A DNA stretch of 64,000 nt from Sorangium cellulosum (GTDB taxonomy: Bacteria > Myxococcota_A > Polyangia > Polyangiales > Polyangiaceae): assembly GCA_020720045.1 (NCBI GenBank), contig DYPH01000002.1, forward strand, positions 35,191 through 99,190. The letters run 5' to 3'. Each line of letters begins with the position of its first letter. Position 1 is the stretch's first letter. The notes under the pieces are model-generated. The model saw only the letters and a program-made list of their open reading frames with translations. It searched no databases and was not told the DNA's origin. The translations under genes and the position numbers were made by a program. This document shows, piece after piece, positions 1 to 59,430 of this stretch.

Positions 1-176
1 CTCCGCCCGGCGAGCCGGATCGGCGAGTGTTGTTGTCTCCGCCCGGCGAGCCGGATCGGCGAGTGTTGTTGTCTCCGCCCGGCGACCCGGATCGGCGAGT
101 GTTGTTGTCTCCGCCCGGCGAGCCGGATCGGCGAGTGTTGTTGTCTCCGCCCGGCGAGCCGGATCGGAGAACGCGT
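1..176. repeat. Module-A tandem array, 36-bp unit (repeat locus 1)
   Basis: Four complete 36-bp units start at 1, 37, 73 and 109; a fifth starting at 145 runs into a variant end. Each unit contains CTCCGCCCGG, then CGAGCCGG, and a TGTTGTTGT-type spacer. The core CCGGC-GA-GCCGG is a perfect inverted repeat, and only the last unit closes the outer stem with CGGAGA followed by ACGCGT. The third unit has one substitution (GAC for GAG, near 95). The array runs off the left edge of the window, so its true length is unknown. Direct abutment of units without spacers argues against CRISPR. It belongs to the same family as the repeats near 6860, 10840, 43260 and 59340. Confidence 0.9.
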
Positions 177-410
177 CCGTCCACAGCGCGAGCGACTGCA
201 GCCCGCAGCCTCAAGGTGCCCGATTTCGCGCGCCGCTTCCAAAGTTGACATAATGCTTATTATGCGAAATCGAAGTCACTGAGCGGGAAGGGGCACATTG
301 TGAATTTCCAGGGAAAATAAGAATGGGCCCCCGGTCTAGAAGACCGAGAGCCCAGATTTGGCGGCTCAAAACCGGAGGTTTCCCTGCGTTTCCGAGCAAT
401 TCCGTCGATG
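177..410. other. Gene-free interval with two hairpins
   Basis: No convincing coding sequence is seen between the repeat array and the stop codon of the minus-strand beta-propeller gene. Two inverted repeats are visible: CATAAT-GCTT-ATTATG at about 250-265, unusually AT-rich for this genome, and CGGTCT-AGA-AGACCG at about 332-346, flanked by GGGC and GCCC. Neither has a convincing T-run, so they are not called as terminators, although one could end the minus-strand transcript. The short ORFs here look like by-products of high GC. Confidence 0.5.
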
Positions 411-1727
411 CTACCGAAGGACGCCCGAATACGGGTCGCTGCGGCGGGCCGGCGCAAGCGGCGACGCGATGCCGATCCCGTAGAGGACCCCCCCATTCGA
501 GAGGGCCCAAAGCCGATCGGCGAACGCCGTGGGCGCCTGTGTGAAGCCGGTCCCCGGGTCGATGCCGTCGATAGCGCGCCCGTCGACCGGTGAGAGCAAG
601 AACAGCCCATACCGCGCCGTGCCAACGGCGACCGCGCCCGATACAGCCACCGGCGCTGTGATGCCGCCCGCCGGGAGCGTATTCCGCCAGAGCACCTTTC
701 CGGTGGCGACGTCGAAGGCCCAAAGGCCGGTCGTTCCGCTCGCCGCCAAGACCATCTTTCGTTCCGGAACCGCCGGTTCTTCCTTCTTTTTCGACGGCGC
801 GTGGAAAGGCTCCTCGAAGCGACCAAGCTGGCTCACCCCAAGTGCACGCTCATTCGTCCAGACGCGCGAGCCGGTGCGCGCATCGAGGGCTACAACGCCG
901 GCTGCGACGTTTGCGACGACGACAAGACCGCGTTCACCGTTCCGGAAAACGAGCGGAGTCGTGTCGCTGTCGAGGTACTTCGGCGCGTCACCGGCATTGT
1001 CGGCTTCTGCGGCGAGGTCGATCGGCGACCACTTTTCCGCGCCCGTAGCGACGTCGTAGGCGGTGACCGTCCCGTCTGAATACGCCATGTATGCGAGGTC
1101 TTCGAAGACGGCAGTCCCCGCGTGGCCGGAGATCTCCATCCCGCTCGCCGACGGGCGGTGCGCTTGCCATTTGGGCTTCCCGGTACGTCGGTCGATGGCA
1201 AAAAGGTAATCGGCACTATTTGTGAAGAGGAGCGTCTCGCCCACCCGAACCGGCCGTCGCGCGACGTCCGACTTCGTGTCGTAGCGGAAGACGAGTCCCC
1301 CATCCTGGGCGCGCACTGCGTAGAGTGCGCCATCCGAGGAGCCGAAGTAGACATAATCCAGTTCGGCGTCGTAGTAGGGCTCCGCCTCGACCGCGCCGAG
1401 GGTTTCGAAGCGCCAAAGTGTACTCCCGTCGGTCGCCCGCAATGCATAGAGGCCGTGGTCGGAACTTCCGACGAAAATTCGAGCCCTTGCGAGATCGAAT
1501 TCCGGGCGCCCTCGCTCGATCCCGCCATCCGGATCGACAAACTTCGCGCTCGTAATCGGCTGCCGAAACAGGACGTTCATCACGCCGCTCGGGCGCGTCG
1601 CCCAAGTCGGACGCTCCGGGTTCACCTTGTCGTTCGCCCGCTCGTTGGAGAGCTCGAAGACGCCACATCCGGCCGTCGAAGCAAGGATGGCAGCGGCGGA
1701 AACCAGCCGAAAAAGCATTGATTTCAT
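411..1727 (-). CDS. BamB-like PQQ-type beta-propeller lipoprotein
   Basis: Predicted 438-aa lipoprotein. The start chosen is ATG at 1727, which begins a typical signal (MKSMLFRLVSAAAILASTAGC) with lipobox STAG-C at Cys21; an upstream TTG at 1769 would overlap the preceding stop but lacks a signal-like N-terminus. Seven blade-like segments recur with PQQ-repeat signatures such as GSSDHGLYALRATDGSTLW, YFGSSDGALYAVRAQDGG and FAIDRRTGKPKW. By family this should be BamB, a periplasm-facing outer-membrane lipoprotein that supports BAM-mediated beta-barrel assembly. It lies just downstream of a YfgM-like gene on the same strand, the same order as yfgM-bamB in enterobacteria, which strengthens the call. 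A generic PQQ-repeat protein remains possible. Confidence 0.8.
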   Translation of the reverse strand: MKSMLFRLVSAAAILASTAGCGVFELSNERANDKVNPERPTWATRPSGVMNVLFRQPITSAKFVDPDGGIERGRPEFDLARARIFVGSSDHGLYALRATDGSTLWRFETLGAVEAEPYYDAELDYVYFGSSDGALYAVRAQDGGLVFRYDTKSDVARRPVRVGETLLFTNSADYLFAIDRRTGKPKWQAHRPSASGMEISGHAGTAVFEDLAYMAYSDGTVTAYDVATGAEKWSPIDLAAEADNAGDAPKYLDSDTTPLVFRNGERGLVVVANVAAGVVALDARTGSRVWTNERALGVSQLGRFEEPFHAPSKKKEEPAVPERKMVLAASGTTGLWAFDVATGKVLWRNTLPAGGITAPVAVSGAVAVGTARYGLFLLSPVDGRAIDGIDPGTGFTQAPTAFADRLWALSNGGVLYGIGIASPLAPARRSDPYSGVLR

Positions 1728-1765
1728 AGGGTTATTCCGCGCGTGATTCCCAGCAAACGAACGGC

Positions 1766-3052
1766 TCAATGCCCTTCGCCCTTCTTCTCCTCGGCCGCCT
1801 TCTGCATCGCGCGCTGGATTTGATCCTGCATCGCCTTCATTTTCGCTTCGCTGAGGCCGCTCCCGAGATCGATGCCGCCCTTGTCGGGGATAGCTTTCGG
1901 GTCGATCGCCTTGAGGCGGTCGTCGACGTTCGTTCCGAGGAACGCAAACATCGTATTCTCGCCGGTGACCTGCGTCGTTTCGCGAATCTTGAGATAAAGC
2001 GCCTTTGCGGCCTCTTTGTCCCCCTTCGCCTCGGAAAGGCGGGCCTGATGATAGAGCCCAAGTTCGCGTGCGCCCTTCGCACTCAATCCCTCAAGTTCCT
2101 TGTACGCTGCGAGTGCCTTGTCGGGTGCTCCAAGTAATTCCTGGGCAAATCCGATGCCTTCGATGGCGCGCACCTTGAGGCGGTTGTCGTCTTTGGCGGC
2201 CACGGAACCACGCACGTCCTCGTAAGCGGCAAGGGCCCCTTTCCCGTCTTTGGTGTCGAGAAGGAGTGCCGCTTCGCCGAGGCGACCGAGCGTTGCCGCG
2301 GCCGTGCCTGGAAACTGCGATTGAACGTCGCGATATTTGGCAAGAGCGGCGTCGCGGCGTTCGACGGTCGTCTTAAAGACCGGGCGCGGATCGACGCCAA
2401 GTTCGTCTTCCGATTCCTTCGCCGGATCTCCGATCCGACCGCGCTCGGCGGTGACCGCATCCCCAAGAATCGCGGACGCCGCTTGGTTGCTTTTTTCGGT
2501 CCGTGCGCGCAGGCCAAAGTAGCCAATTCCGGCGAGTGCGGCCGCCGCGAAGATGCCGAAGACCACGTTCTGGTTCTTCTTGATCCAGTCATTGATGAGG
2601 GCGCCTTCGACCTCACGCGGCGCAAGTTTCACGCGCGCGATCGCTTCGTCCTCTTCCTCTTCATCGCGCTCGGCATCGCGGGCAGCCTGCTCCTTCGCGA
2701 GCTTCTTCTTCTTCGGCTTCGTGCCGATTTTCTGAAGCTTTTTCGTTGCCGCCCCCTCAAGGCCGCCCTTCTTGCGCTCCTCAAGCTTGGCCTCTTCGGC
2801 GCGCGCAATCTTCTCGATTTCGTCGTCCTCACCGAGCGCTGCCACGCGCGCGAGGATCGCATCCGGGGACGTCAAATCCTTTGCCGGCTTCTCATCGACC
2901 TTCGCCCCTGCACGCGTGCTGGCCGGCGGCGCCTTGTCTTCCGAGGGGTCCGTTGCCGCCGACGTTTCCGTCGCCCCCGACTCGTTCGCTTCCGTCGTGG
3001 CTTCAGCGGCGGTTTCCGGGGTCGTGGTGGGCTTCTTGTCGTCGTCGGACAC
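1766..3052 (-). CDS. YfgM-like membrane-anchored TPR protein
   Basis: About 428 aa. The GTG at 3052 is chosen because GGAG lies 8 bases upstream; the open frame continues further up without a better site. Residues 1-155 are highly charged and low in complexity (Thr/Ala/Glu, then Lys/Glu runs such as KPKKKK). One membrane segment (about 162-181, VVFGIFAAAALAGIGYFGL) is followed by a C-terminal TPR-like region with repeated ALAAYEDV and ALAAYKEL helices. E. coli YfgM is a single-pass inner-membrane protein with periplasmic TPRs, linked to the Sec translocon and encoded beside bamB; the topology and the downstream BamB-like gene agree. The long charged cytoplasmic N-terminus is an addition relative to E. 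coli YfgM. Confidence 0.65.
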   Translation of the reverse strand: MSDDDKKPTTTPETAAEATTEANESGATETSAATDPSEDKAPPASTRAGAKVDEKPAKDLTSPDAILARVAALGEDDEIEKIARAEEAKLEERKKGGLEGAATKKLQKIGTKPKKKKLAKEQAARDAERDEEEEDEAIARVKLAPREVEGALINDWIKKNQNVVFGIFAAAALAGIGYFGLRARTEKSNQAASAILGDAVTAERGRIGDPAKESEDELGVDPRPVFKTTVERRDAALAKYRDVQSQFPGTAAATLGRLGEAALLLDTKDGKGALAAYEDVRGSVAAKDDNRLKVRAIEGIGFAQELLGAPDKALAAYKELEGLSAKGARELGLYHQARLSEAKGDKEAAKALYLKIRETTQVTGENTMFAFLGTNVDDRLKAIDPKAIPDKGGIDLGSGLSEAKMKAMQDQIQRAMQKAAEEKKGEGH

Positions 3053-3292
3053 TGGGAATTCTCCGGGATTCGCAATCGACAATTCCAGCAAATGCTGCTC
3101 AATCGTCAATCGTTAGCAAAGGGGACACGGCGCGGGCGATCTTTGGGGACCACCCTGCCCCATCCGTGCGCGCCCTGCCCGAACCGCAGATGCGCTTCTT
3201 GGGGGCGAGCACCTTTGAGGGCGCAAGCGTTCGCGGAGCTACTCGAAATTGTCGCCAGTGACCAGCGGGAAGCCAGCGGTTCCACGGGAATT

Positions 3293-6226
3293 TTAGGGGG
3301 ACACGCCGACTTCGTCTTCCGGTCCTGCGTCCCAGGGAATCGGCGGAGGTGGCGCGAGTTCGACGGTTGGCGCGACGACCCACACGCGCCCCTTCCCGCC
3401 TGTAGTTACAAGGCCTTGTGCCCCCTCCGGAACCGTTCCGCGCCGCAGGGAATCGCCGACTCGGGCGTCGGACAGAGGGATCGGCGTTCCATGAACGCTG
3501 ACTGCGTCGGCGTCGGTCAGAACGGTGCGTCCGGCGACGGCGTTTTGCGGCGCTGCGAGAAGCCCCGCCGCGTCGGCCAGCGCGAGCGCTTGGAACAGTG
3601 GTTCGGGAAGCCCAGAAAAACGCAAGAGAATCGGCTGTGCATCCTTCGCACCACCGACGGCGAGAAGCGCCCGAAGGAGGGGCGCCCGGAGTTCCACGTG
3701 CCGCTCCTCGGCCGCCCGTTGGGCGAGCGGTTCACGGGCACGGGCGTCGCCAGCCGCTTCAAGCGCCTGAGCCACGTCGCCGCGAATGCGCACATCACCC
3801 AAGAGGGCAATGAGGGCGGGAACTGCTTGTTTCGATTTGAGTTTTGCGCTTGCGCGGACCGCGTCGCGAAGCCTCTTGAAGCTTAATCCGCGAACCGCCG
3901 GCTCGGCGAGCGCCGCCGCGAGCGTCTCCTCGCCCCGCTTGTCGCCCGTCTCGGCGAGTGCGAGCGCGGCGAGAAAGCGCGTGCGGGCATCCCCTTTCTG
4001 AAGCGCTTCGTCGAGGCGTGAAAGGTGCTCCCCTCCCGATCGAAGAGTTGCTGCCGCGGCCAGGTAGCTCACACCGAGATCTTCGTCGCGCTCGGCGGCC
4101 AGTCGGAGCGCGTCCTTGGCATCGGGAGCCGCCAAATCAAATAGACAATCGGCCGCGTGAAGACGAACGTCTCGCTTCGCATCCTCGAGCAGGGCGGCGG
4201 CATCGGTCGCCGCATCGGCATCGCCGGCCACGCAGCGTCGAAGCGCCTCTGGGAGCCCGGCGCCGCGCTCGCCTTCCAAGGCTCCATGCCCCTTCTGAAT
4301 GGCAGCAGATAGCGCTCGAAGCCCCCGCAACTCGGCGGCACGCGTTGCCTCTGCGACGCGGTTCTTTCGTTCCTCCGGGTCGTCGGAGAGGTCGTAGAGA
4401 GCGCAGGCTCCGCCTTCTTTTTTGCAAAGAAGTCGAAGATTTCCGCGCGCGACCATCGCGTCGTCTTCTGTCTCTGCGAAGGCCCAGGTCGGCTCCGCCG
4501 ACTTTCCGATGAGCAGGGGACCTAGGTCGCGCCCACGAAGGCGAGACGGTCGCGGGACTCCAAGCGCCGAAAGCACCGTAGGCAGGAGATCGATCGTTTG
4601 AACCGGTTCGGAAACAACGCGTGCGGCCACCTTCGGAGCGACGATGATCAACGGGACACGGACCTGCTCCTCGTAGACTGAAGTCCCGTGGTAGCGGCCG
4701 CCATGGTCGCCAAATTCCTCGCCATGATCCGCGGTGACAATCACGACCGCGTTGGGGCGAGCCGCACGCACTTTGGCGACGGCTGCACCCACCAAAGCAT
4801 CAGCTTCCGCGATCTCGCTGTCGTAGGCGTCGACGTCGGTCGGCCGGGCGTGGTCGCCGAAGCGGTGCTCCGCGTGCATTTCGTAGGGCTCGTGGGGCTC
4901 AAACGCATGGAGCCACAGAAACAACGGATGATCCTTTGGCGCCTTCGCCAAATAACTGTCGAGTTGTTTTTCGCGAAGTTCGCGCCCAGCAAACTCTACT
5001 TTTGCGTACTCGAAACCGAGTCGCCGCTCTTGAAAGTTGGTAAATTTGGGGCCATCGATGAAGAAGACCGCCGGCGGGTAGAAGGCCGCCGTCCGGTAGT
5101 CGTAGCGCCGCAACAAATCGGCAAATGTCTCGGAATCACTTCCTAAATCGAGGGCGAGGAGCGGGCGAAGATACTTGCCCGTCATCATCGAGGTCACCGA
5201 GTACGAGGTATGAGGGGTCGGGCAGTAGGCGCGCTCGAAGCGAACACCTTCACGCGCGAGGGCATCGATATTCGGCGAGGTCTTGCGCGCGTATCCGTAG
5301 GCGCCAAGATGATCGGCTCGTAGCGCGTCGATACTGATGAGGACGATATCGACGCCGGTAAAATCGAGGGACCGATTCGAAGAACCAACGGAAGCGGTGA
5401 CCGTTTCCGTGCCGTTCGCGACCTCTGCGTCGGCGGGGGCCATTCTGCCTGCGATGGCGACCCATTTCCCGCCAAGAGGGCTCTGCTCGGCAAAGACGAC
5501 GCGAACGTTGTCGTAACCGGCAAGCTTCTTTGCCAAAAACGGCGCGAGAATGCACGAAATCAGGCCGATCGATGCGATCACTCGCGCGACAAACGGCCGA
5601 CGTACTGCGGGAAAAAGTCCGGCCGCGAGGAGGAGTGCCCCCGCGCCGAGGAACCCGTGAAATGCCGGGTACAGACGTGGAAGGAGGAAGCGGTCGGCCA
5701 GTACGAGGGCGACGATCGCAGCGGTCAGTGCGGCAATCCGTTGGCGCGGTCGTCCTTGAAAGTAGCGGACGGTCGGGCCCGCAACGAGGAGTTTCATGCC
5801 GCCGGCGGCGAGCGCGAACAAACCCACGAAGGCGACACGCACGGGAACATTTTCAAAGTGCCGGCCGAAGGAGATGCCGTAGGCAAACACCCCCCCGAGA
5901 ATTCCCGCAACGAGGCCGACGCGACCTCGACCGCCGAGAAAATTCCTCGGTTGGGCCCCACGACCACCGCGAAGGGGGTCGAGAAGAAATGGGGCGCCGA
6001 TGCCGACCGCGCCGGCGACGATGAAGCCGACGGCCGCGCCGATCGAGGCGACGTAGCCGAGCGCAGCGCCGAGCTCAAAAGCGCCGACAAAAAAATCGCG
6101 CCGAAGGCAAAGCACGAGAAATACTTCGCAATACACAAGCGCAACAATCCCGAGCCACGCGCCGGTGACTCGGGAAAGTAGGTTGGGTTCGTCGCTGGCG
6201 CGGGGCGCGGACGACTCTGCGGTCAC
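3293..6226 (-). CDS. Membrane sulfatase-fold (LtaS/arylsulfatase clan) protein with HEAT-like repeats
   Basis: 977 aa. About six or seven hydrophobic segments occupy residues 22-235. The alkaline-phosphatase/sulfatase domain follows: DIVLISIDALRADHLGAYGY with metal-ligand Asp300, and TADHGEEFGDHGG with Asp500/His501. At the position where sulfatases carry the Cys or Ser that becomes formylglycine (C/S-x-P-S-R), this protein reads THR-SER-TYR-SER-VAL (Thr340), so it lacks the sulfatase signature and resembles the Thr-nucleophile transferases (LtaS, phosphoethanolamine transferases). The last 330 residues are Ala/Leu/Asp-rich helical repeats like HEAT repeats. The GTG start overlaps the greA stop (GTGA), implying coupled translation. 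Substrate unknown; a membrane-glycan modifying enzyme is the best guess. Confidence 0.75.
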   Translation of the reverse strand: MTAESSAPRASDEPNLLSRVTGAWLGIVALVYCEVFLVLCLRRDFFVGAFELGAALGYVASIGAAVGFIVAGAVGIGAPFLLDPLRGGRGAQPRNFLGGRGRVGLVAGILGGVFAYGISFGRHFENVPVRVAFVGLFALAAGGMKLLVAGPTVRYFQGRPRQRIAALTAAIVALVLADRFLLPRLYPAFHGFLGAGALLLAAGLFPAVRRPFVARVIASIGLISCILAPFLAKKLAGYDNVRVVFAEQSPLGGKWVAIAGRMAPADAEVANGTETVTASVGSSNRSLDFTGVDIVLISIDALRADHLGAYGYARKTSPNIDALAREGVRFERAYCPTPHTSYSVTSMMTGKYLRPLLALDLGSDSETFADLLRRYDYRTAAFYPPAVFFIDGPKFTNFQERRLGFEYAKVEFAGRELREKQLDSYLAKAPKDHPLFLWLHAFEPHEPYEMHAEHRFGDHARPTDVDAYDSEIAEADALVGAAVAKVRAARPNAVVIVTADHGEEFGDHGGRYHGTSVYEEQVRVPLIIVAPKVAARVVSEPVQTIDLLPTVLSALGVPRPSRLRGRDLGPLLIGKSAEPTWAFAETEDDAMVARGNLRLLCKKEGGACALYDLSDDPEERKNRVAEATRAAELRGLRALSAAIQKGHGALEGERGAGLPEALRRCVAGDADAATDAAALLEDAKRDVRLHAADCLFDLAAPDAKDALRLAAERDEDLGVSYLAAAATLRSGGEHLSRLDEALQKGDARTRFLAALALAETGDKRGEETLAAALAEPAVRGLSFKRLRDAVRASAKLKSKQAVPALIALLGDVRIRGDVAQALEAAGDARAREPLAQRAAEERHVELRAPLLRALLAVGGAKDAQPILLRFSGLPEPLFQALALADAAGLLAAPQNAVAGRTVLTDADAVSVHGTPIPLSDARVGDSLRRGTVPEGAQGLVTTGGKGRVWVVAPTVELAPPPPIPWDAGPEDEVGVSP

Positions 6227-6693
6227 TTGAATTCGATGGCAAGAATCTCGAAGATGCGCTCACCACCGGGGGTGCGTGTCTTCACTTCGTCGCCGACTTC
6301 TTTTCCGATGAGCGAGCGTGCCATCGGGCTCGTCACGCTGATAAATCCGCGTGCGACGTCGGTTTCGTCGGCGCCGACGAGCTTGTAAATGACGGTCTTT
6401 TCGTGTTCGTCCTGAAGCGTGACCGTCGCCCCAAAAGCGACTTTGTCGCCGGCGAGCGTCTTCGGATCAATGACTTCCGCGCGCGCGAGCTTGTCCTCGA
6501 TGACGCGCATCATCTCCTCGATCTGCCCCTGTCGCTCTTTTGCCGCGTGATATTCGGCATTCTCCTTGAGATCGCCTAGCTCGCGGGCGTGTGCAATTTG
6601 CTCGACGATGCGGGGACGCTCAGCGCGATATTTCGCCAGCTCCTCCTTCAACCGCGTGAGACCTTCCGGGGTGATCGGATTCTTCTCGACCAT
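6223..6693 (-). CDS. greA: Transcription elongation factor GreA
   Basis: 156 aa, the normal GreA length. The N-terminal coiled coil carries the hallmark ELGDLKENAEYHAAKERQ (about 39-56), and the C-terminal FKBP-like domain ends PGGERIFEILAIEF. GreA inserts its coiled coil into the secondary channel of RNA polymerase and stimulates cleavage of backtracked transcripts. The stop codon is shared with the GTG start of the downstream sulfatase-fold gene in a GTGA overlap, so the two are co-transcribed. The start ATG at 6693 faces the plus-strand ORF at 6787 across a 93-bp divergent gap. Confidence 0.97.
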   Translation of the reverse strand: MVEKNPITPEGLTRLKEELAKYRAERPRIVEQIAHARELGDLKENAEYHAAKERQGQIEEMMRVIEDKLARAEVIDPKTLAGDKVAFGATVTLQDEHEKTVIYKLVGADETDVARGFISVTSPMARSLIGKEVGDEVKTRTPGGERIFEILAIEFK

Positions 6694-6786: not shown

Positions 6787-7233
6787 ATGAAGATTATTGC
6801 AACTTTCCCCGCTTCGGGCTTCCGGCTTTCCTTGGAGCGCAGCCTCACGAGCGACGCGTTTGTCTCCGCCCGGCGAGACGCCGGACCGGAGAACGCGTCC
6901 GTCCGCGAAGCGGGAGACGGCGCGGAGTTCTTGCCAAACGTTTCCGTCCGCGAAGCGGGAGACGGCGCGGAGTTCTTGCCAAACGCGTCCGTCCGCGAAG
7001 CGGGAGACGGCGCGGAGCTGGCCGCATATTCCTACCGGGGAGATCTCCACTTCGCCGATCGCGTGGAGCCTGCAGCCTGCACCGTCTTTGCCGACGGAAG
7101 CGTTCGCGTCGACGTGGCGCCTTCAGAACTTCATGAAAAAGTTCGGCTACTCGTCCGCGCTGCCATCAAAGGGCCGCTCCGGGAAGGGCTCGCACCCCCT
7201 CGTCGCATTCAACGTTGGCGCGATGGCGCGTAA
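6787..7233 (+). CDS. Small protein of unknown function carrying in-frame A/B repeats
   Basis: 148 aa from the ATG at 6787 (AAAGG about 9 bases upstream). Residues 1-24 (MKIIATFPASGFRLSLERSL...) precede a 50-odd-residue stretch encoded entirely by palindromic module A and two and a half 45-bp B units, read as GDGAEFLPN / ASVREA repeats. Residues from about 78 on (YRGDLHFADRVEP, CTVFADGSVRVDVAPSEL, HEKVRLLVRAAIKGPL, RRIQRW) look like genuine conserved protein. The stop is 6 bases before the bamD start, so it is probably in the bamD operon. The repeats keep the frame open, as Rickettsia palindromic elements do. Alternative: the true protein starts after the repeats, for example at a GTG near 7063. 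I do not recognise the family. Confidence 0.55.
   Translation: MKIIATFPASGFRLSLERSLTSDAFVSARRDAGPENASVREAGDGAEFLPNVSVREAGDGAEFLPNASVREAGDGAELAAYSYRGDLHFADRVEPAACTVFADGSVRVDVAPSELHEKVRLLVRAAIKGPLREGLAPPRRIQRWRDGA
6854..7017 (+). repeat. Module A plus 2.7 module-B units (repeat locus 2)
   Basis: Module A spans 6854-6898: ACGCGT, TTG bulge, TCTCCG, CC, CCGGCG-AGA-CGCCGG, AC, CGGAGA, ACGCGT, a nested hairpin nearly palindromic along its length. Relative to the standard CCGGC-GA-GCCGG core it has a 3-bp expansion that extends the stem by one pair. Three B units follow: 6895-6939 (45 bp), 6940-6984 (45 bp, junction mutated to GTTTCC) and 6985-7017 (truncated at 33 bp). Each B unit holds the hairpin CCGT-CCGC-GAA-GCGG-GAG-ACGG. 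All lengths are multiples of three and the ORF stays open throughout. Confidence 0.9.
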
Positions 7234-10802: not shown

Positions 10803-10836
10803 CGAAAACCCTGCCCTTACGGGCGGGGTTTTTGCG
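10803..10836 (+). terminator. Intrinsic terminator of the 46-aa gene
   Basis: AAAACCCTGCCC-TTAC-GGGCGGGGTTTTT forms an 8-bp GC stem (one T-G pair) with a TTAC loop and a T5 run. It sits directly before repeat locus 3. Confidence 0.85.
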
Positions 10837-10890
10837 TTTGTCTCCGCCCGTGCATGGGGGGTCGCAGAAACGCCGGATCGGAGAACGCGT
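10835..10890. repeat. Single module A with enlarged loop (repeat locus 3)
   Basis: The ends match the family: GCGTTTGTCTCCGCCC at the left and GGATCGGAGAACGCGTC at the right, with TCTCCG at 10841-10846 pairing CGGAGA at 10879-10884. The CCGGC-GA-GCCGG core is replaced by about 25 bases of unrelated sequence, so the outer stem is kept while the inner stem is lost. It sits between the terminator of the 46-aa gene and the stop codon (TAG) of the minus-strand membrane protein, which falls at the element's right boundary. Confidence 0.8.
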
Positions 10891-16076: not shown

Positions 16077-17249
16077 TCAATCGGGATGCACGGCTGCGTT
16101 GTGGGCGTCCAAGCTCTCGGAAAACGTGTGCCGACCTCCCCCTTTTGCAACGAAATAGAGGAACTTCGTCTCGCGGGGGCTCAGCACCGCCTCGATCGAT
16201 GGAAGGCCCGGGTTCGCGATCGGCCCCGGTGGTAGCCCTTCGTGGGTGTACGTCGAATAGCGATTCGCGCGGTCGTGGTTCATTGGCGCAGTGATTTTAC
16301 CGCTGAAGGCGCCGCATGCCGTCGGATTGCCTGCGAATTCGGGATTGACCTCCTTCGCAATCGCGCAGCCATAGCCAGCCGTCGGGTCCGATTGTAGGAC
16401 GCGCCGCGGAAACGCCGGATCGCGCAGGCGGTTTTCGAACACGCTTGCAACGAGAGGCCGCTCCTCGTCGACGGCCGCTTCCTTTTCGACCACGCTCGCG
16501 AGAGTGACGATGTCGCGTCGCGAAAACCTGAGCGTTTGCGATAGCCGGGCGAGGTCGGCACCGTGGGCCGCTTCCAGCTTTTTCCAACGCTTTTCGAACT
16601 CACCGACGAGACGCTCAACGACGACCTCCGGAGCCTCGTCTTCGCCAAATTCGTAGGTGGCCGGGAAGAGGAATCCTTCCGCCGAGGCAGATGGCTCTGG
16701 CGTGAGCGGAGCGAGCTGAAGTCGTTTGAGGAGCGCCCCGTCGCCGGTCGCTGCAACAAACGCTGCACGCGTGCATATTCCCTTCTCTTCGAGGCGCCGG
16801 CCAATGTCAAAACGCGTAAACCCCTCCGGAACCGTCACTTTTTGCCGGTCGCCCCCCCCAGAGCGCGTCAGCCGGTCGGCGATCTCTCCGAGGGTCAGAT
16901 CGTCGCGGAGGAGGTGCTCGCCGGCGACAGGGACGACGGAACGCACCCTCTCGTAAAGGCGAAATCGGGCTGCATCTTGGATGACGCCGGTTGTCTCCAA
17001 GAGGAGCGCGAGGCCGTCCGCGCTCTCGTTCGCGGGGACCACCACCGTGATTCGCTTCCCGGTGCCGGTCGCTTTGGCGCGCTGGCGGGGCAGTGCGACG
17101 TAGGCCCCCATCGCGCCGGCCACCGCAAGGAGGGCAACGGCGGCGCCCACAAGCACGAAGATATTCGGCTTTTCAGCCCCTTTTCGCCGTGAAACCCGCG
17201 GTCGTTTCGCGTCGACCGGAGCCGGCTTCGCTTTTTTCGGTCCGCTCAC
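16077..17249 (-). CDS. mltG: Endolytic murein transglycosylase MltG
   Basis: 390 aa. One transmembrane helix near residues 30-50 (FVLVGAAVALLAVAGAMGAYVAL) follows a basic N-terminus. The YceG domain carries VTVPEGFTRFDIGRRLEEKG, GFLFPATYEF, the catalytic-Glu segment LASVVEKEAAVDEERP and the terminal NRYSTYTHEGLPPGPIANPG. MltG cleaves nascent glycan strands and sets their length. The GTG start overlaps the ruvX stop (GTGA), a common yceG-ruvX neighbourhood. Confidence 0.95.
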   Translation of the reverse strand: MSGPKKAKPAPVDAKRPRVSRRKGAEKPNIFVLVGAAVALLAVAGAMGAYVALPRQRAKATGTGKRITVVVPANESADGLALLLETTGVIQDAARFRLYERVRSVVPVAGEHLLRDDLTLGEIADRLTRSGGGDRQKVTVPEGFTRFDIGRRLEEKGICTRAAFVAATGDGALLKRLQLAPLTPEPSASAEGFLFPATYEFGEDEAPEVVVERLVGEFEKRWKKLEAAHGADLARLSQTLRFSRRDIVTLASVVEKEAAVDEERPLVASVFENRLRDPAFPRRVLQSDPTAGYGCAIAKEVNPEFAGNPTACGAFSGKITAPMNHDRANRYSTYTHEGLPPGPIANPGLPSIEAVLSPRETKFLYFVAKGGGRHTFSESLDAHNAAVHPD

Positions 17250-43251: not shown

Positions 43252-43470
43252 GCGGTTGTCTCCGCCCGGCGCGACGGATCGGAGAGCGCGTTTGGCAAGA
43301 ACTCCGCGCCGTCCCCCGCTTCGCGGACGGACGCGTTTGGCAAGAACTCCGCGCCGTCCCCGCTTCGCGGACGGACGCGTTTGGCAAGAACTCCGCGCCG
43401 TCCCCCGCTTCGCGGACGGACGCGTTTGGCAAGAACTCCGCGCCGTCCCCCGCTTCGCGGACGGCGCGTC
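43252..43470 (-). repeat. Module A plus four reversed module-B units (repeat locus 4)
   Basis: Module A lies at 43252-43291 with TCTCCG (43261-43266) and CGGAGA (43282-43287); its inner core is degenerate. Four B units follow in reverse complement: 43292-43336 (45 bp), 43337-43380 (44 bp, one C lost from a C5 run), 43381-43425 (45 bp) and 43426-43470 (last few bases diverged). The 44-bp unit breaks the mod-3 rhythm, consistent with a non-coding location. On the minus strand the B units come directly after the stop codon of the Cys-rich gene. Confidence 0.92.
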
Positions 43471-44070
43471 TCAGTCGGCGCAGAGGAGCTTTGCGGCGGC
43501 GAGGCTCGTGAGTTCGGCAGCGTCGTCGCCGAGTGCGGGAAAGGCGCAACGACGGCCGCAGCGCGCGACGGTCCGCCGACGGGCACAGTCAATGACCACC
43601 GGGGCGACGTTCGGCCCTGCATCGGTTCCCCCTTCGCAGACAAAGCTCTCGCCATCGTCGCAGGCGACCTCCTGCGCGTCGCCAAGGGGGACCGTTCGCG
43701 GCGGTCCCGCGCACAGCTGCTCGGAGTCGGCCCCCGATCCATCGCCGACGACCACAACGCGATCGGCGACGCATGCTCGCCCGTTTGGGCAATCCCCCAA
43801 CGACCGCCAGGGGCAATCACGATGGCTGTCCGGCGGTAAACGCTCAGAATCACTAATAAAACGTTCGCCGTCTTCGCAGCGGAGTAGGCCTCCGACGCAA
43901 TCGACACCCACGACCGTCCCCTGAAACGCGCCCCCGGCGTCGGTCAAGAGCGCAAAATCGCCGGAGATCCGCTTTGGCGAGCAGCCGCGCCCGTCACAGG
44001 CGAGCAAGACTGCTGCACACAAAAAGCGGCGAGCGCACCGAAAGAGTTCTCGATGCGCTCGCCGCTTCAC
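43471..44070 (-). CDS. Cys-rich exported protein of unknown function
   Basis: Up to 199 aa from GTG 44070; TTG near 44018 is an alternative because the first 17 codons coincide with the rpoD terminator hairpin. A basic, hydrophobic N-terminus (CARRFLCAAVLLAC) could be a lipoprotein signal with lipobox LLA-C. The mature part has about 12 cysteines in short spacings (VDCVGGLLRCEDGERF, DCPWRSLGDCPNGRAC, VACDDGESFVCEGG, IDCARRRTVARCGRRC), some of which resemble repeated EDGERF/DDGESF units. No family recognised. Repeat locus 4 starts at its stop codon. Confidence 0.6.
   Translation of the reverse strand: MKRRAHRELFRCARRFLCAAVLLACDGRGCSPKRISGDFALLTDAGGAFQGTVVGVDCVGGLLRCEDGERFISDSERLPPDSHRDCPWRSLGDCPNGRACVADRVVVVGDGSGADSEQLCAGPPRTVPLGDAQEVACDDGESFVCEGGTDAGPNVAPVVIDCARRRTVARCGRRCAFPALGDDAAELTSLAAAKLLCAD
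44021..44067 (-). terminator. rpoD terminator
   Basis: On the minus strand AGCGGCGAGCGCA (44066-44054) pairs perfectly with TGCGCTCGCCGCT (44037-44025), followed by TTTTT. It lies 27 bases after the rpoD stop and overlaps the 5' end of the next minus-strand ORF. Confidence 0.92.
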
Positions 44071-53225: not shown

Positions 53226-53776
53226 ATCGCTTCCTCTTTTGGGGCGCCGCTTCGGCCGCGCTCCTCGTTTCCGTTGCGGCGACCGTTCAGGGGCTCGACA
53301 GCTACAAGGTCGTCACGCCGCTCGCGTCCGCGTCGGCGAGCGCCTCGGCGGCCCCTTCGGCGACCGCCCCGGCATCGGCGTCCCCGCTCGACCTCGCCAT
53401 CGCGTCGGCCGCAGCGACCCCTTCGGCGGCACCGGTCCCGGAAGTCGCGCCGGTACCGGCGGGGAATTCGGTCAACCTGGGGATCATCATGGTGACCTAC
53501 CAGGGGGCCCAGAACGGCGTCGTCGGCGGTGCACCGCGCACGCGCAGCAAGGACGACGCGCTCGCCCTCGCAAAGAAGCTCGCCGAAGACGCGAAGACCA
53601 ACTTCGGCGCCGCGGTGAGCCGAGGCGATTCGGGCAGCGACGCAAACTTGGGCCGCTTTCCGAAGGGGACCCTCGAGGCGAACGTGGAGGCGGTCGTCTT
53701 CGCGCTTCCGCCGGGCGGCATCAGCGAACCGATCGATACGCCCCGCGGCTACTGGGTCGCCAAGCGCCTCGAGTAA
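53222..53776 (+). CDS. Parvulin-type peptidyl-prolyl isomerase
   Basis: 184 aa. GTG start coupled to atpC. An N-terminal hydrophobic segment (FLFWGAASAALLVSVAATVQ) acts as signal or anchor, followed by a Ser/Ala-rich linker (about 33-80). The C-terminal rotamase domain has GIIMVTYQGAQNGVVGG, ALALAKKLAEDAKT, ANLGRFPKGTLEANVEAVVFAL and GGISEPIDTPRGYWVAKRLE, the PpiC layout. Predicted periplasmic folding catalyst. The fourth PPIase in the window. Confidence 0.88.
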   Translation: MNRFLFWGAASAALLVSVAATVQGLDSYKVVTPLASASASASAAPSATAPASASPLDLAIASAAATPSAAPVPEVAPVPAGNSVNLGIIMVTYQGAQNGVVGGAPRTRSKDDALALAKKLAEDAKTNFGAAVSRGDSGSDANLGRFPKGTLEANVEAVVFALPPGGISEPIDTPRGYWVAKRLE

Positions 53777-53801
53777 CGAGCCGACTCCACGAATCGCTAG
53801 G

Positions 53802-53840
53802 AGAAGAAGTGCGCCAGACCGGCACGCTTCTTTTTCGTTT
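53802..53840 (+). terminator. Intrinsic terminator of the atpDC-parvulin unit
   Basis: AAGAAG-TGC at 53804-53812 pairs with GCA-(CG)-CTTCTT near 53822-53831 with a 2-base bulge, followed by a T-rich run TTTTTCGTTTTG. Confidence 0.7.
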
Positions 53841-53892
53841 TGTTCGGTGGTGGCCGTAAGTTCGGCCCGTCGACGCCGATGGGAACTCATCT

Positions 53893-54495
53893 ATGAAGCA
53901 TGCAGCTCTCGGTTTGCTCCTCTCCACGGCTCTCGTCGGCGCCTGTGCCCAAACGCCGGCCCCGCCTCCGACTGCGCCGGCCGGCCCCGGAATCCAAGAG
54001 GGTGCCCTGCCCGTCGACCCGGCCCACCAGGATCACAGCGTCGCCTCTCCCGCCGTCGGCGAGGCCCCCCCGGTCGCGAAGAAGTCCCGCTTTGACAACA
54101 CGCAAGCCGTAGCCGCTGCGTCCTGCAAGGGCTACGGCCGTCCGTTCTCGGCAGCCCACGGGGCCCGTCCGTTCGCGACCGCCAGCAAATTCGCTGGCGG
54201 AGGCGTCGCGAGAGACGGCGGGCCCACTTCCACAGGGGCCCCCGCCTTCAAGCGCACAGGTGACACCTGGATTTCTCAGGAAATTCGAGGGGGTGGCGGC
54301 TGCCCGAAGCGCGCGACGTTCACGCTCGCCTACACGCCGAAAACGGAAGCGGGAAAGACGGTGCTCGTCGCTCACGTCTGCGAGGACGTCGAGGCCGACC
54401 CCTGTGAAATGGCCTGGACCGGTACGATCTCCTTCGATCTCAGCAAGGAACTCGCGGCAAACCACGCGACCGACGTGACGTTCGTCGACCCGTGA
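53893..54495 (+). CDS. Lipoprotein of unknown function
   Basis: 200 aa. Signal MKHAALGLLLSTALVGAC with lipobox VGA-C. A Pro/Ala linker leads to a domain with paired cysteines (SCKGYGRPF, GGGCPKRATFTLAY, HVCEDVEADPCEMAWTG) and a strand-rich end (ISFDLSKELA). Not recognised. Followed by two GAGTC-based hairpins. Confidence 0.75.
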   Translation: MKHAALGLLLSTALVGACAQTPAPPPTAPAGPGIQEGALPVDPAHQDHSVASPAVGEAPPVAKKSRFDNTQAVAAASCKGYGRPFSAAHGARPFATASKFAGGGVARDGGPTSTGAPAFKRTGDTWISQEIRGGGGCPKRATFTLAYTPKTEAGKTVLVAHVCEDVEADPCEMAWTGTISFDLSKELAANHATDVTFVDP

Positions 54496-54497
54496 GA

Positions 54498-54520
54498 GGA
54501 AGAGTCTCTAGGACTCTTTG
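54498..54520 (+). terminator. Short hairpin 3' of the lipoprotein gene
   Basis: AAGAGTC (54500-54506), loop TCTAG, GACTCTT (54512-54518), immediately after the stop. No long T-run, so it may be a processing or stability element rather than a terminator on its own. Confidence 0.5.
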
Positions 54521-54568
54521 AAAAGGTCTCGGGACCTCAATTCAAGAGAGACGGCTCCCGAGCGATTC

Positions 54569-54620
54569 TGAAAAGAGTCTCAAAAACGTTTACAAAACAT
54601 ACTTGAGACTCTTTTTCTTT
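54569..54620. terminator. Bidirectional terminator with AGAGTC core
   Basis: AAAAGAGTCTCAA (54571-54583) pairs with TTGAGACTCTTTT (54603-54615), loop of about 19 bases containing GTTTACA; T5 and CTTT follow. It ends the plus-strand lipoprotein gene and, on the other strand, the regulator gene. Confidence 0.85.
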
Positions 54621-54645
54621 CATAACCCATGAAACTAACAACCCA

Positions 54646-56211
54646 TTACGTTCGTGATGGGGCCGGCGCGTAGAGGGACAGGCCCCGGTAGTTCTCGTCG
54701 ACGCGCAGCGGCACTTTGAGGGACGGCAGGGCGCGCTGCTCGCAATCCATGCGCTCACACAGCCGACACGTCACGCCGACCGGCGTCACGAGCGCCGGGT
54801 TGTCGAGATCGATACCGTCCGAGTAGACCATCGCCCGCGCAAACTCGACTTTGCAGCCGAGGCCGATCGCCTGCATCGGCTGCTGGGAGTGATAGCCGCC
54901 CGAGTCCTTTTGAATCGTGCGTGCAATGCAGAAGAACGTGTCTCCATCGGCCATTCGTGAGAGCGCTACGCGGACCATATTTGGCGTTTGAAAAGCGCTG
55001 AATACGTTCCACCGTGGACAGGCACCCGAGTAGCGCGCAAAACGGATTCCGCTGCCGGAAAAGCGCTTTGAAATATTCCCTGCGACGTCGATGCGCAACA
55101 TGTGAAAGGCTACCCCTTCCCGCCCCGGTCGGCGGAGGGTTGTCAGGCGATGGCAAACTTGCTCAAAGCCGACGCGAAAGCGGCGCCCGAGGACTTCGAC
55201 GTCATATCGCTCGTCTTTTGCGGCCTTTAGGAAGGTCTCGTAGGGCATCAGCACGGCGCCAGCAAAGTAGTTGGCGAGGGCTACGCGCGCGAGCTTGCGG
55301 CTTTCCTCGGTGGTGAGGCCCGGCTCGTCGACGATGCGATCGAGGATCTTTGCGCAGGTAATCAGTGCAATTTGTGCCGAAAGCTGAAAGAGCCGTGAAC
55401 GCGTCGCAAGTAGCTCAGACAGTGTAAGAATCTTGCGCTCGTCGTCGTAGCGGCGAAGGGTTCCTCGTTCTTGCCCCCAACGAGCAATCTGCACGGAGAT
55501 TCCGTGCTCGGTTTCGAGGAAGCGCGTGAGACCGTGGTAGATATCCAGGTGGGTGATCTTGGCCTTCTTCCAGAGCGCCTCCGCCGCCTCCTCGAGCTCG
55601 GGCACGTAGTTCATCTTGCGCTGGAGGAAGTCGCTCACCTCCTCGCTCGGGAGCCCCGCCGCACGTGAGTTCCCGTGGTCGTCGCCAGACGCGACCCGCG
55701 ACGAGAGCTCGTCGACCGCCTCTTGGGCGCCGTGAAAGGCCCGGTAGAGGCGTAGGACTTCGTGGGCGATCGTCGGCTGAACGGTTGCGAATTCACGAAC
55801 TTCTGCGCTCGTCATCGTCGCATCTTCGAACAGGGGATCGGCAAACGCCTCGAGGAGTTCGCCGACAAGTCGCGCGTCCTCGTCGCTTCCGAAACTCGCA
55901 AGATCAACGTCCAGCACCTGGGCGAGCTTGATGAGGAGCGCCGAAGGCAGCGGCCGCTTATTGTTCTCGATGAGATTTAGGTAACTCGTGGAAATTCCTA
56001 ATGCATCGGCAAGATCTGCTTGGCTAAGCTCCGCCCGGCGCCGGAGCCCACGGATTTTTGCACCGAACCGGGGAACTTCCTTCGGCGTGCGCCCGCGCGG
56101 GGCCGCCGCCGTCGCCCCATCAGGACGCTTGAATTCGGGCGCGGTCGCGGCGAGCGTGGCCGCCGCTCGTCGACCGGGAAGATTCCGCTGGATCGGAGGG
56201 TTCGTTGACAT
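54646..56211 (-). CDS. RamB/ScfR-like XRE-family regulator of the glyoxylate shunt
   Basis: 521 aa. A disordered basic N-terminus, then an XRE helix-turn-helix (about 47-105: KIRGLRRRAELSQADLADAL, STSYLNLIENNKRPLPS). The middle holds the ImmA/IrrE-like segment (RKLARVALANYFAGAVLMPYETF), and the C-terminal domain has VGVTCRLCERMDCEQRALP with conserved cysteines, the layout of short-chain acyl-responsive ScfR and RamB regulators. In actinobacteria RamB controls aceA/aceB; here the gene is divergent from aceB with 143 bp between starts. Regulation of aceBA is an inference. Ligand unknown. Confidence 0.85.
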   Translation of the reverse strand: MSTNPPIQRNLPGRRAAATLAATAPEFKRPDGATAAAPRGRTPKEVPRFGAKIRGLRRRAELSQADLADALGISTSYLNLIENNKRPLPSALLIKLAQVLDVDLASFGSDEDARLVGELLEAFADPLFEDATMTSAEVREFATVQPTIAHEVLRLYRAFHGAQEAVDELSSRVASGDDHGNSRAAGLPSEEVSDFLQRKMNYVPELEEAAEALWKKAKITHLDIYHGLTRFLETEHGISVQIARWGQERGTLRRYDDERKILTLSELLATRSRLFQLSAQIALITCAKILDRIVDEPGLTTEESRKLARVALANYFAGAVLMPYETFLKAAKDERYDVEVLGRRFRVGFEQVCHRLTTLRRPGREGVAFHMLRIDVAGNISKRFSGSGIRFARYSGACPRWNVFSAFQTPNMVRVALSRMADGDTFFCIARTIQKDSGGYHSQQPMQAIGLGCKVEFARAMVYSDGIDLDNPALVTPVGVTCRLCERMDCEQRALPSLKVPLRVDENYRGLSLYAPAPSRT

Positions 56212-56354
56212 AATTTACATGTTTACACGACCACTATGACAAGCGCAAACATAGGTTTCTTCCTCATAACGCACCGCTTCTTGACCGCTTCGACAACATC
56301 CATCATTGTCACTCCACCTCGTCGCGGCTCTTGCGCCGCCGAAGGAAACTCCCG
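56200..56354. promoter_or_regulatory. Divergent control region of the regulator and aceB
   Basis: TTTACATGTTTACA (56214-56227) is a direct repeat of TTTACA just upstream of the regulator ATG (56211). GTTTACA occurs again at 54588-54594. On the minus strand TTGTCA (near 56240) and TAAATTAT are positioned like a promoter very close to the start codon, suggesting a short or absent leader. A GCGCAAACAT element at 56240-56250 resembles the reported AAAGTTTGCAAA-like RamB sites only loosely. A good GAAGGAA ribosome binding site precedes aceB. Confidence 0.5.
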
Positions 56355-57959
56355 ATGACCCTCGCTCTCCCCACCGGCGTCTCTGTCCTTGGTCCGCTCA
56401 AGCCGGGCTACGAAGCGATTTTGACGGAAGGCGCCCTCGCCTTCGTCGCGGCCCTGGAACGCCGTTTTGGCTCGCGCATCGATGAGCGCCTCGCGGCGCG
56501 CGTGGAGCGTCAGGCGCGTCTTGCCGCTGGCGAAACCTACCGGTTCCTTCCGGAGACCCAGGACGTCCGTGACGGCGCGTGGACGTGTGCCGCCGTCCCT
56601 GCCGACATCCAAGATCGCCGCGTCGAGATCACCGGCCCCGTCGACCGGAAGATGATCATCAACGCCCTGAATTCCGGGGCGAACGTCTTCATGGCCGACT
56701 TCGAAGACGCAACGGCGCCGACGTTCGCCAATCAGGTCGAGGGGCAGATTAACCTCCTCGACGCGAACCTGGGCACGGTCTCCCTCGAACAAAATGGGAA
56801 GAAGTATGCGCTGAGCGAGAAGCCGGCAATCCTCTTTGTCCGTCCTCGAGGCCTCCATCTCCCCGAGCGCCACGTCACCGTTGACGGAAAGACCGTTCAC
56901 GGAAACCTGTTTGATTTTGGTCTCTATTTCTATCACAACGCGAAGGTTCGCTCGGAACGGAAGGCGCTCGGCGAGGGGGTCTATCTCTACCTCCCCAAGC
57001 TCGAGAGCCACCTTGAGGCACGAATCTGGAACGATATCTTCCTTTTTGCGGAAGAGACGTTGGGCCTCCCGGTGGGTACGGTGAAGGCGACGGTGCTCAT
57101 CGAGACGCTGCCGGCCGCCTTCGAAATGAACGAAATTCTTCACGAGCTGAAAGATCACTCGGCGGGTCTCAACTGCGGCCGCTGGGACTACATCTTCAGC
57201 TTCATCAAGAAGCATGCGTCGGACAAGAACGCGATTCTCCCCGACCGCGGCACGATCACCATGGATCGAGGCTTCCTGCGGGCGTACTCGCAGCTCCTGA
57301 TTCAAACGTGCCACAAGCGCGAAGTGCATGCGATGGGCGGAATGGCCGCGTTCATCCCGGTGAAGGGGAATGAAGCTGAGAACGACGCTGCGTTCGCCAA
57401 AGTCAAAGCCGACAAAGAGCGAGAAGCCAACGACGGCCACGACGGAACTTGGGTCGCCCATCCCGGTCTCGTGGCGACGGCAAAGGCGGTTTTTGACGCC
57501 AAAATGCCCGGCAAAAATCAACTCGCGAACAAACGCCTCGATGTCGCGGTCACCGCCGCCGACCTCCTCGCCATCCCCGATGGTCCGCGTACCGAGCCGG
57601 CCCTCCGGCACAACATCAAAGTCGGCATCCAGTACATCGAAGCGTGGCTCCGCGGCAACGGTTGCGTCCCCCTCTACAACTTGATGGAAGACGCCGCGAC
57701 CGCGGAAATTTCGCGGGCGCAGGTCTGGCAATGGCTCACCTACGGCGTCGCCCTCGACGACGGCGAAAAGCTCACCGGTCAGCGTTTCCTGACGATGATC
57801 GGTGACACCATGGAGGAGGTCCGCCGGGAGCTCGGCGACGACCGCTTTGCCGCCGGACGCTTTCCGGAAGCGCGAGATCTCTTCGAGAAGCTCAGCACCG
57901 CTTCCACCTTTGAAGAATTCCTAACGGTCCCCGCCTACGCGAAGATCGTGACATTGTAG
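56355..57959 (+). CDS. aceB: Malate synthase A
   Basis: 534 aa from ATG 56355 (GAAGGAA upstream). Malate synthase features: EDATAPTFANQVEGQINL, RPRGLHLPERHVTVDG, ATVLIETLPAAFEMNEIL, LNCGRWDYIFSFIKK, AMGGMAAFIPVK and HDGTWVAHPGLVATAK. Condenses glyoxylate and acetyl-CoA to malate in the glyoxylate bypass. Upstream of aceA with a 93-bp gap. Confidence 0.97.
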   Translation: MTLALPTGVSVLGPLKPGYEAILTEGALAFVAALERRFGSRIDERLAARVERQARLAAGETYRFLPETQDVRDGAWTCAAVPADIQDRRVEITGPVDRKMIINALNSGANVFMADFEDATAPTFANQVEGQINLLDANLGTVSLEQNGKKYALSEKPAILFVRPRGLHLPERHVTVDGKTVHGNLFDFGLYFYHNAKVRSERKALGEGVYLYLPKLESHLEARIWNDIFLFAEETLGLPVGTVKATVLIETLPAAFEMNEILHELKDHSAGLNCGRWDYIFSFIKKHASDKNAILPDRGTITMDRGFLRAYSQLLIQTCHKREVHAMGGMAAFIPVKGNEAENDAAFAKVKADKEREANDGHDGTWVAHPGLVATAKAVFDAKMPGKNQLANKRLDVAVTAADLLAIPDGPRTEPALRHNIKVGIQYIEAWLRGNGCVPLYNLMEDAATAEISRAQVWQWLTYGVALDDGEKLTGQRFLTMIGDTMEEVRRELGDDRFAAGRFPEARDLFEKLSTASTFEEFLTVPAYAKIVTL

Positions 57960-57997
57960 TAACCCGAACGACGAGCAGAAGGTGCACTGTTTTCGCT

Positions 57998-58016
57998 GCA
58001 ATTCGTGACGAATTCA
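57998..58016. promoter_or_regulatory. Perfect palindrome upstream of aceA
   Basis: AATTCGT-G-ACGAATT (58000-58014) is an exact inverted repeat, 39 bases before the aceA ATG and AT-rich against the background. It could be an operator for an aceA-specific promoter or a short RNA hairpin between the two genes. Confidence 0.5.
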
Positions 58017-58052
58017 GTGTGCCTCTTGCAAAGTGACGACAGGAGAATTCCC

Positions 58053-59324
58053 ATGAGCAATACCAACAACGCCGTCAACAACGCCGATTGGCTCGCCCAG
58101 CGCTTCGCCGGCATCACCCGCACCTACTCGAAGGCGGATGTCGAGCGGCTCCGCGGCTCCTATGCGGTGGCGCACACGATCGCCGACCTCGGCGCACGTC
58201 GTCTCTGGGAACTCATGAATTCGCGGGATTACGTCCACGCGCTCGGCGCCCTCACCGGCAACATGGCGGTCCAGCAGGTCCGCGCGGGGCTCGAGGCGAT
58301 CTACCTCTCGGGCTGGCAAGTCGCCGCCGATGCGAATCTCTCCGGCGAAATGTACCCGGATCAGTCCCTCTATCCGGCCAACAGCGTCCCGTCGGTCGTG
58401 AAGAAGATCAACGCCGCGCTCCTCCGCGCCGACCAGATTGAAGCGGCCGAAGGCAAGGTCACCCGCAACTGGCTCGCGCCGATCATGGCCGACGCAGAAG
58501 CGGGCTTCGGCGGCCCCCTCAACGCCTACGAGCTGATGAAGGGGATGATTGAAGCGGGCGCCGCTGGCGTCCACTTCGAAGACCAGCTCGCTTCGGAGAA
58601 GAAGTGCGGCCACATGGGCGGCAAGGTTCTCATCCCGACGGGCCAGTTTATTCGCACGCTTACCGCCGCTCGTCTCGCCGCCGACGTCGCCGACGTGCCG
58701 ACCGTTCTCGTCGCCCGCACCGACGCCGACAGCGCGAAGCTCCTCACGAGCGACATCGACGAGCGCGATGCGCCGTTCATCCTCCCCGGCGAGCGCACCG
58801 CCGAGGGCTTCTTCCGCATCAAGGCCGGCACGGAAACGGCGATTGCCCGCGGCCTCGCCTACGCCCCGTTTGCCGATGTGATCTGGTGCGAAACCTCCAC
58901 GCCGGACCTCGCTCAGGCGAAGCAGTTCGCCGAGGGGATCCACAAGCAGTTCCCCGGCAAGCTCCTCGCCTACAACTGCTCGCCTTCCTTCAACTGGAAG
59001 AAGAACCTCGACGACGCCACCATCGCGAAATTCCAGCGGGAACTCGGGGCGATGGGCTACAAGTTCCAGTTCGTCACCCTCGCCGGCTTCCACTCCCTCA
59101 ATTACGGGATGTTCGAGCTCGCGCGGAAGTACAAGACCGACGGAATGGCCGCCTACTCCATCCTCCAGCAGGCCGAATTCGCCTCGGAGAAGGACGGCTA
59201 CACGGCGACGCGCCACCAGCGCGAAGTCGGCACCGGCTACTTCGATTCGGTGGCCCAGGTCATCAGCGGCGGCACCTCAGCGACGCTCGCCCTCAAGGAA
59301 TCGACGGAAGAACACCAGTTCTGA
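58053..59324 (+). CDS. aceA: Isocitrate lyase
   Basis: 423 aa from ATG 58053 (AGGAGAA 8 bases upstream). Signature KKCGHMGGK with catalytic Cys, metal-site [34 protein letters not shown], and [14 protein letters not shown]. Cleaves isocitrate to glyoxylate and succinate. Together with aceB it forms the glyoxylate shunt allowing growth on acetate or fatty acids. Repeat locus 5 starts at its stop codon, before the terminator. Confidence 0.97.
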
Positions 59325-59328
59325 TCGT

Positions 59329-59430
59329 CGCCACCGCGTCCGTCCGCAAAGCGGGAGACGGCGCGGAGTTCGATGCCACCGCGTCCGTCCGCAAAGCGGG
59401 AGACGGCGCGGAGTTCGATGCCACCGCGTC
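59329..59430 (+). repeat. Two module-B units (repeat locus 5)
   Basis: Two B units of 45 bp at 59336-59380 and 59381-59425, preceded by a partial end (GCCACC) and followed by a 5-base start of a third. The hairpin loop reads AAA instead of GAA (CCGC-AAA-GCGG) while the stem is unchanged, and the inter-hairpin part is GTTCGATGCCACC instead of GTTCTTGCCAAAC. No module A. The array lies between the aceA stop and its terminator, in the sense orientation. Confidence 0.92.

Follow-up and report, generated by a model that had tools for sequence, protein, structure and literature searches.

Two short palindromic modules, A and B, constitute a family of protein-coding palindromic elements that works like the Rickettsia palindromic elements, and the rule of its insertion is resolved here: what appears as the ends of the modules is a target-site duplication with a fixed length of 6 bp. 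Both are probably micro-MITEs, palindromic and non-autonomous insertion modules of a single Polyangiales genus, and are most simply understood as a selfish element.

The window, i.e. the whole stretch of 64,000 nucleotides that was analysed, contains five loci, all of which a sequence-only reading had placed correctly. They comprise the following features, with the supporting methods in brackets:

1 to 170, plus strand: tandem array of A in the 30-bp form, with a period of 36 and GTGTTG joints; the window begins inside the array (TRF, nhmmer)
171 to 176, no strand: right hexamer ACGCGT of this array, at the target-duplication position (sequence, 6-bp spacing rule)
6787 to 7233, plus strand: conserved small protein gene with an in-frame A followed by B, B and a partial B (homologues, alignment)
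6854 to 6859, no strand: left hexamer ACGCGT (sequence)
6860 to 6892, plus strand: A core of 33 bp, with the in-frame reading FVSARRDAGPEN (sequence, nhmmer)
6893 to 6898, no strand: hexamer ACGCGT joining A and B (gap of exactly 6)
6899 to 6937, minus strand: first B core, 39 bp (sequence, TRF, nhmmer)
6944 to 6982, minus strand: second B core, 39 bp (sequence, TRF, nhmmer)
6989 to 7017, minus strand: third B core, truncated (sequence, nhmmer)
10838 to 10884, plus strand: degenerate A with an enlarged loop, 47 bp (sequence, nhmmer)
43256 to 43285, plus strand: A core, 30-bp form (sequence, nhmmer)
43292 to 43464, plus strand: four tandem B cores with ACGCGT joints, the second core 1 bp short (TRF, nhmmer)
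59340 to 59378, minus strand: first B core, with CCGCGT hexamers on either side (sequence, nhmmer)
59385 to 59423, minus strand: second B core, with CCGCGT hexamers on either side (sequence, nhmmer)

The repeat periods determined by TRF were 36 on 1-167, with 98% matches, and 45 on 6892-7017, 43287-43469 and 59330-59430. The array at 43292-43464 abuts the stop codon of an open reading frame on the minus strand (43471-44070), and the B core at 59340-59378 lies directly past the isocitrate lyase stop codon. The stretch behind isocitrate lyase with its two B units is present in two contigs, at L178 (G000:C274) and at window position 59334, and reflects either duplication of the gene or a duplicate in the assembly. 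Positions 10835-10890 had been read as one A; an A is present there, but it is degenerate and its loop is long. Its length is not a multiple of three, and it is located outside recognised genes and 3' of a terminator-like hairpin. At window positions 16767/16812, ACGCGT recurs with a spacing of 45 bp by chance, as there is no element at this site.

The A core consists of TTG and TCTCCG...CGGAGA and comprises 33 or 30 bp, while the B core, TTG(N)...CCGTC...GACGG, comprises 39 bp. The terminal inverted repeats of A form 12 base pairs over 30 bp, with 96% of the cells paired. The A at 6854 had been considered unusual for a 3-bp insertion; the 30-bp form, with 40 of 59 single copies, is instead the usual one, and 12 copies have the rarer 27-bp form. 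Judged by eye, the reverse complement of A shares CTCCG...CGTCTC...GCGGA with B, and by this resemblance the two modules look related to one another. In 138 of 141 adjacent pairs the gap between the two cores is exactly 6 bp, regardless of module type and orientation. The spacer hexamer is mostly ACGCGT, with GTGTTG (window 1-176), CCGCGT (59334) and ACGCAT (L112) as further forms. The spacing rule therefore defines the module joints as duplicated targets and not as module ends, which is the role initially ascribed to ACGCGT; in the array at 1-176 this position is occupied by GTGTTG. Neighbouring A and B units have the same relative orientation in 11 cases and the opposite one in 11, as expected for a palindromic target hexamer, and the palindromic hexamer and this 11:11 ratio explain the A/B mosaic. 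Neighbours of the same type share their orientation in 116 cases and oppose each other in 3, which is expected if arrays grow by duplication. Loops vary and stems stay, as the sequence-only reading had observed, but covariation is slight and provides no strong case for structural selection. Among 60 copies of each module, only two double changes in 12 pairs were found for A and two cells in 8 pairs for B, because the copies are young and alike. Covariation was thus rejected as proof of structure, the changes being too few.

Genome-wide pattern counting revealed about 170 units of A and 234 of B in the own genome (G000, 6.34 Mb), and about 84 and 89, respectively, in that of the sister (G001, 5.2 Mb). 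A 30-bp A pattern with up to three mismatches gave 83 plus 88 matches, and a 25-bp B pattern with up to two mismatches gave 111 plus 123, versus 0 for each reversed-pattern control; TCTCCGCCCGG occurs 147 times in the own genome, versus 4 for its reversed control. Among 379 Myxococcota genomes scanned, A and B are confined to one genus: bar isolated single matches, the A pattern is absent from 182 other Polyangiales genomes and the B pattern from 377 other Myxococcota genomes. The isolated matches, one apiece in G079, G307 and G484, were taken as chance. Profile searches with nhmmer, which covered 454 kb of the own genome (the window and 100 stretches round repeat matches) and 228 kb of sister sequence, identified about 274 and about 63 units, respectively. 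The named sister loci are from JAAFHJ01, a Myxococcales MAG that is likely the same genome as G001. The flanks align between the two species at about 92% identity, and the mean column identity of aligned copies is 91-92% (60 A, 60 B). A and B match no RNA family in Rfam, which at gathering score gives a single match in the window, a tRNA. We found no account of such elements in myxobacteria in the literature, which is weak evidence because many journals lay outside the search. The search of the genome and its relatives thus uncovered many copies, also in the sister, and not merely the five of the window. These hundreds of copies, together with lineage-specific insertions and empty sister sites, bear out the proposal of an undescribed, dispersed and mobile palindromic family.

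The length of the target-site duplication is evident from 86 single A copies, in which left-right identity exceeds permutation with z=6.5 at length 6 and with z of at most 2.4 at lengths 4, 5, 7 and 8. B alone gives a weak signal (z=1.7), since ACGCGT, which is also the preferred target hexamer, makes up nearly all of its hexamers. When own loci were aligned to the sister (n=52), about two dozen sites had no element in the sister; these empty sites and the lineage-specific insertions therefore indicate recent mobility. In eight clean empty sites, the net length equals the core span plus 6 exactly. Across these eight sites, the left hexamer is identical to the target in 36 of 48 positions (shuffled 27.6, p=0.005), the right hexamer in 42 of 48 (shuffled 33.6, p=0.003), and the left and right hexamers agree with one another in 35 of 48 (shuffled 30.3, p=0.008). 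The cleanest case is L112, where the sister reads ...GGGGC-ACGCATC-AATGG and the own genome ...GGGC-ACGCATC-[38 bp]-ACGCATC-AATGG. A few empty sites deviate, with net lengths of 36, 38, 39 and 231 against the expected 39, 39, 36 and 234, and some hexamer copies are nearer to ACGCGT than to the target. At several sites the target is poorly matched by one hexamer of the pair, and for this reason conversion towards ACGCGT, or recombination between element hexamer and target hexamer, may have acted instead of pure duplication. The species also differ in the lengths of individual arrays, with four B units against one, five A against one and six B against three; absolute sizes are uncertain because some arrays contain N gaps. 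Where L157 is compared with L044, the sister has about 1.4 kb extra between stretches that adjoin in the own genome; this segment contains a B element and is probably a larger mobile segment.

Core plus hexamer amount to 36, 39 or 45 bp, which are multiples of three, and an insertion therefore leaves the reading frame unshifted. Genes were called by combining a hexamer coding model with Pfam/NCBIfam matches and relatives, as codon-only calling was too noisy. Among the 123 clusters with both flanks, 14 are in frame within a coding region according to the hexamer coding model, and the remaining clusters are mostly intergenic. Gene 3' ends make up 69 of the flanks and 5' ends 71, a count that rejects the suggested association with gene 3' ends. 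By homology, about ten copies are located in frame within conserved genes. UvrA contains the 13-residue VLRSGVSPGGDKR inside one TIGR00630 match, and the aspartyl-tRNA synthetase AspS contains VLRSGASPGGDQG in a loop of its N-terminal domain; the sister has neither insert. KdpD carries B, B and A in frame, with one B fewer in the sister. Further in-frame inserts are present in HsdM, a xanthine-dehydrogenase-like protein (XDH), glycerol-3-phosphate acyltransferase (GPAT), a PCMT-like protein, the C-terminal part of phosphomannose isomerase and an E2 linker, where the species differ by 24 bp. Within genes, A is read in at least four frames and B in at least three. In the few cases available, indels between the species measure 3, 24 and 45 in genic copies and 2, 2 and 8 in non-genic copies.

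The locus at 6854-7017 lies within the conserved gene 6787-7233 and not at a gene end. Without the insert, the encoded protein has about 90 amino acids. It has matches in 32 other Polyangiales genomes at E<=0.01 (33 of 145 genomes in all), and the best homologues run through the joint uninterrupted; in the alignment, the extra block is present in the own genome alone. The family is uncharacterised and has the C-terminal sequence ...EKVRLLVRxxxKxxxxEGxxPPRRIQRWR; a Pfam search with the protein gave nothing above cut-off. Two further loci concern reading frames. A 753-aa open frame (L175:1601-3859, minus strand) has taken up B at three separate places; one of these insertions has the opposite orientation and another is triple. 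At L105:1979-2015, beside an A insertion, a C-run of the own gene is one base shorter than that of the sister and the frame shifts, which is either recent damage or an assembly error.

Rickettsia palindromic elements are dispersed between genes and in frame within conserved genes (PMC10969869, PMC2229807), and their target duplication is listed as unknown (PMC2229807). A and B resemble RPE-1 and the shorter RPE-4/RPE-6 in being palindromic, dispersed, intergenic and in frame in conserved genes. They differ, meanwhile, in the phylum of the host, in sequence insofar as this could be assessed, and in size, the best-known RPEs having 105-150 bp and the A/B cores 30-39 bp. Two interlocking modules, a measured 6-bp duplication and tandem arrays further set them apart. 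UvrA and AspS are empty in the sister and the window gene is uninterrupted in relatives, as befits a protein-coding palindrome; the comparison with Rickettsia palindromic elements was thus well founded. The kinship with REP/BIME sequences, in contrast, is not upheld. REPs are hairpins of 20-40 bp with high copy numbers, and some are intragenic, including in uvrA (PMC3733652); A and B share the short hairpins, the high copy number and the occasional location in genes, uvrA among them. However, aligning 60 copies of each module revealed no unpaired GTAG tag at the hairpin end. The CGTC REPs are defined by an unpaired conserved CGTC tag, A/T pairs opening the stem and a CCA tail (PMC3733652), features that the B alignment does not display, as the core is flanked by bases that change with the target. 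The CGT beside B is part of the variable target hexamer, the B stem opens with CCGT and no A/T pair, and there is no CCA tail. A/B arrays are mainly head-to-tail, whereas REPs form head-to-head dimers. With MITEs such as RUP and NEMIS, A and B have in common the inverted-repeat ends, the target duplication and the non-autonomous nature, but the smallest described MITEs have 70-300 bp (PMC3733652). A and B are about half the size of these smallest MITEs, and in the examined loci a MITE-type parent IS was not found. Pneumococcal BOX elements are modular too, with a middle module whose copy number varies; unlike in BOX, each A or B module is itself the insertion unit, with duplicated-hexamer joints and in either orientation. 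Yeast mitochondrial GC clusters are likewise short GC-rich palindromes in genes with a target duplication, but they reside in an organelle with an AT-rich genome and use another target.

For such micro-MITEs, a trans-acting recombinase or transposase would join the hairpin core to a target hexamer opened by a cut with a stagger of 6 nt. Every insertion would yield a second ACGCGT and hence a fresh palindromic target, and these targets would seed mixed clusters in either orientation. Slippage or unequal exchange across the hexamer that neighbours share could later expand homogeneous tandem arrays, while selection would purge most genic insertions, and the survivors in tolerant loops and linkers would be retained as extra peptide. 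A length of 30-39 bp is very short for a transposon with two transposase-bound ends, which counts against this reading. Going further, a dedicated, undescribed recombinase might join the 30-39 bp hairpins to the palindromic hexamer, with the multiple-of-three length as an adaptation to the colonisation of coding sequence and A and B as a minimal peptide-inserting mobile element; we regard this extension as speculative and rather unlikely.

The enzyme could also come from a known class. No transposase is present in the window, as had been stated, but this is uninformative on the genome, in which at least 12 copies, full or partial, of a Y1/HUH transposase (PF01797, weak match) are present, with 14 in the sister. 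Its IS has an IS200/IS605-like layout of about 1.4 kb with a Y1 of 310-340 aa (L261-L280 and L225-L230, e.g. L228:1249-2654). The A and B modules could accordingly be REP-like substrates of this multicopy Y1 (HUH/IS200-like) enzyme, a RAYT-REP pair without GTAG that operates by single-strand hairpin chemistry. An A element follows the Y1 stop codon at 10-39 bp, in constant orientation, in 10 of the roughly 19 copies inspected; in 3 copies B elements do so, and the element often sits between the stop codon and the right part of the IS. The presence of A is scattered over the transposase tree, which favours this proposal and led us to reject a clade-specific gain of A in the Y1 family. The constant place and orientation, however, also fit one ancestral insertion followed by losses, and distant Y1 relatives have no conserved hairpin downstream. 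Moreover, A duplicates its target, and to our knowledge IS200/IS605-type transposition does not. The Y1 IS has ends of its own, a palindromic LE CCCCTGGCCCRGGCCAGG and an RE AAATCTAGCTGTCAGCTAGATTT, which are unlike A or B. We therefore consider the substrate proposal unlikely and the Y1 transposase a weak candidate for the mobiliser. A half-element search for an autonomous parent, in which A- or B-like halves flank a gene, found none in the examined loci.

Spread might instead require no transposase at all, if template switching or gene conversion at ACGCGT microhomology copied whole periods and the duplication were only apparent, i.e. shared microhomology. Targets that were often ACGCGT-like beforehand agree with this, as does a B at L126 with a target-type left hexamer (CCGGGT) and an element-type right hexamer (ACGCGT), and whole-period insertions and homogeneous arrays would be predicted. 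Yet the UvrA target ATTCCC is unlike ACGCGT and is nevertheless represented by the hexamers ATCCGC and ACTCCC, and the L105 target ACAAAT by ACAACT and ACAAGT; in addition, such copying should preserve one orientation, in contrast to the 11:11 ratio of A-B neighbours. This route appears improbable, to the same degree as the Y1 substrates. A role as host-functional RNA or terminator hairpins retained by selection at gene ends is far less probable still. The GC hairpins are strong and some adjoin stop codons or terminators (window 59334, 10838), but 3' and 5' gene ends are equally represented, copies are located within coding regions and positions turn over freely, with rapid changes of presence and absence between the sister species. 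Hardly any covariation and the lack of an Rfam match also speak against it.

Palindromic inserts that keep the reading frame have been known chiefly from Rickettsia, in which their mode of insertion is still open. The A/B micro-MITEs belong to another phylum and offer dozens of filled and empty sites in two species that are about 92% identical, together with a measured insertion rule and recent insertions in frame in essential enzymes, aspartyl-tRNA synthetase among them. It thus becomes possible to test directly how such elements insert and what a random insert of 12-15 residues costs a protein. For annotators, protein stretches resembling SNSAPSPASRTDAF, NASVREAGDGAEF or VLRSGASPGGDKR are a warning of mobile-element peptide.
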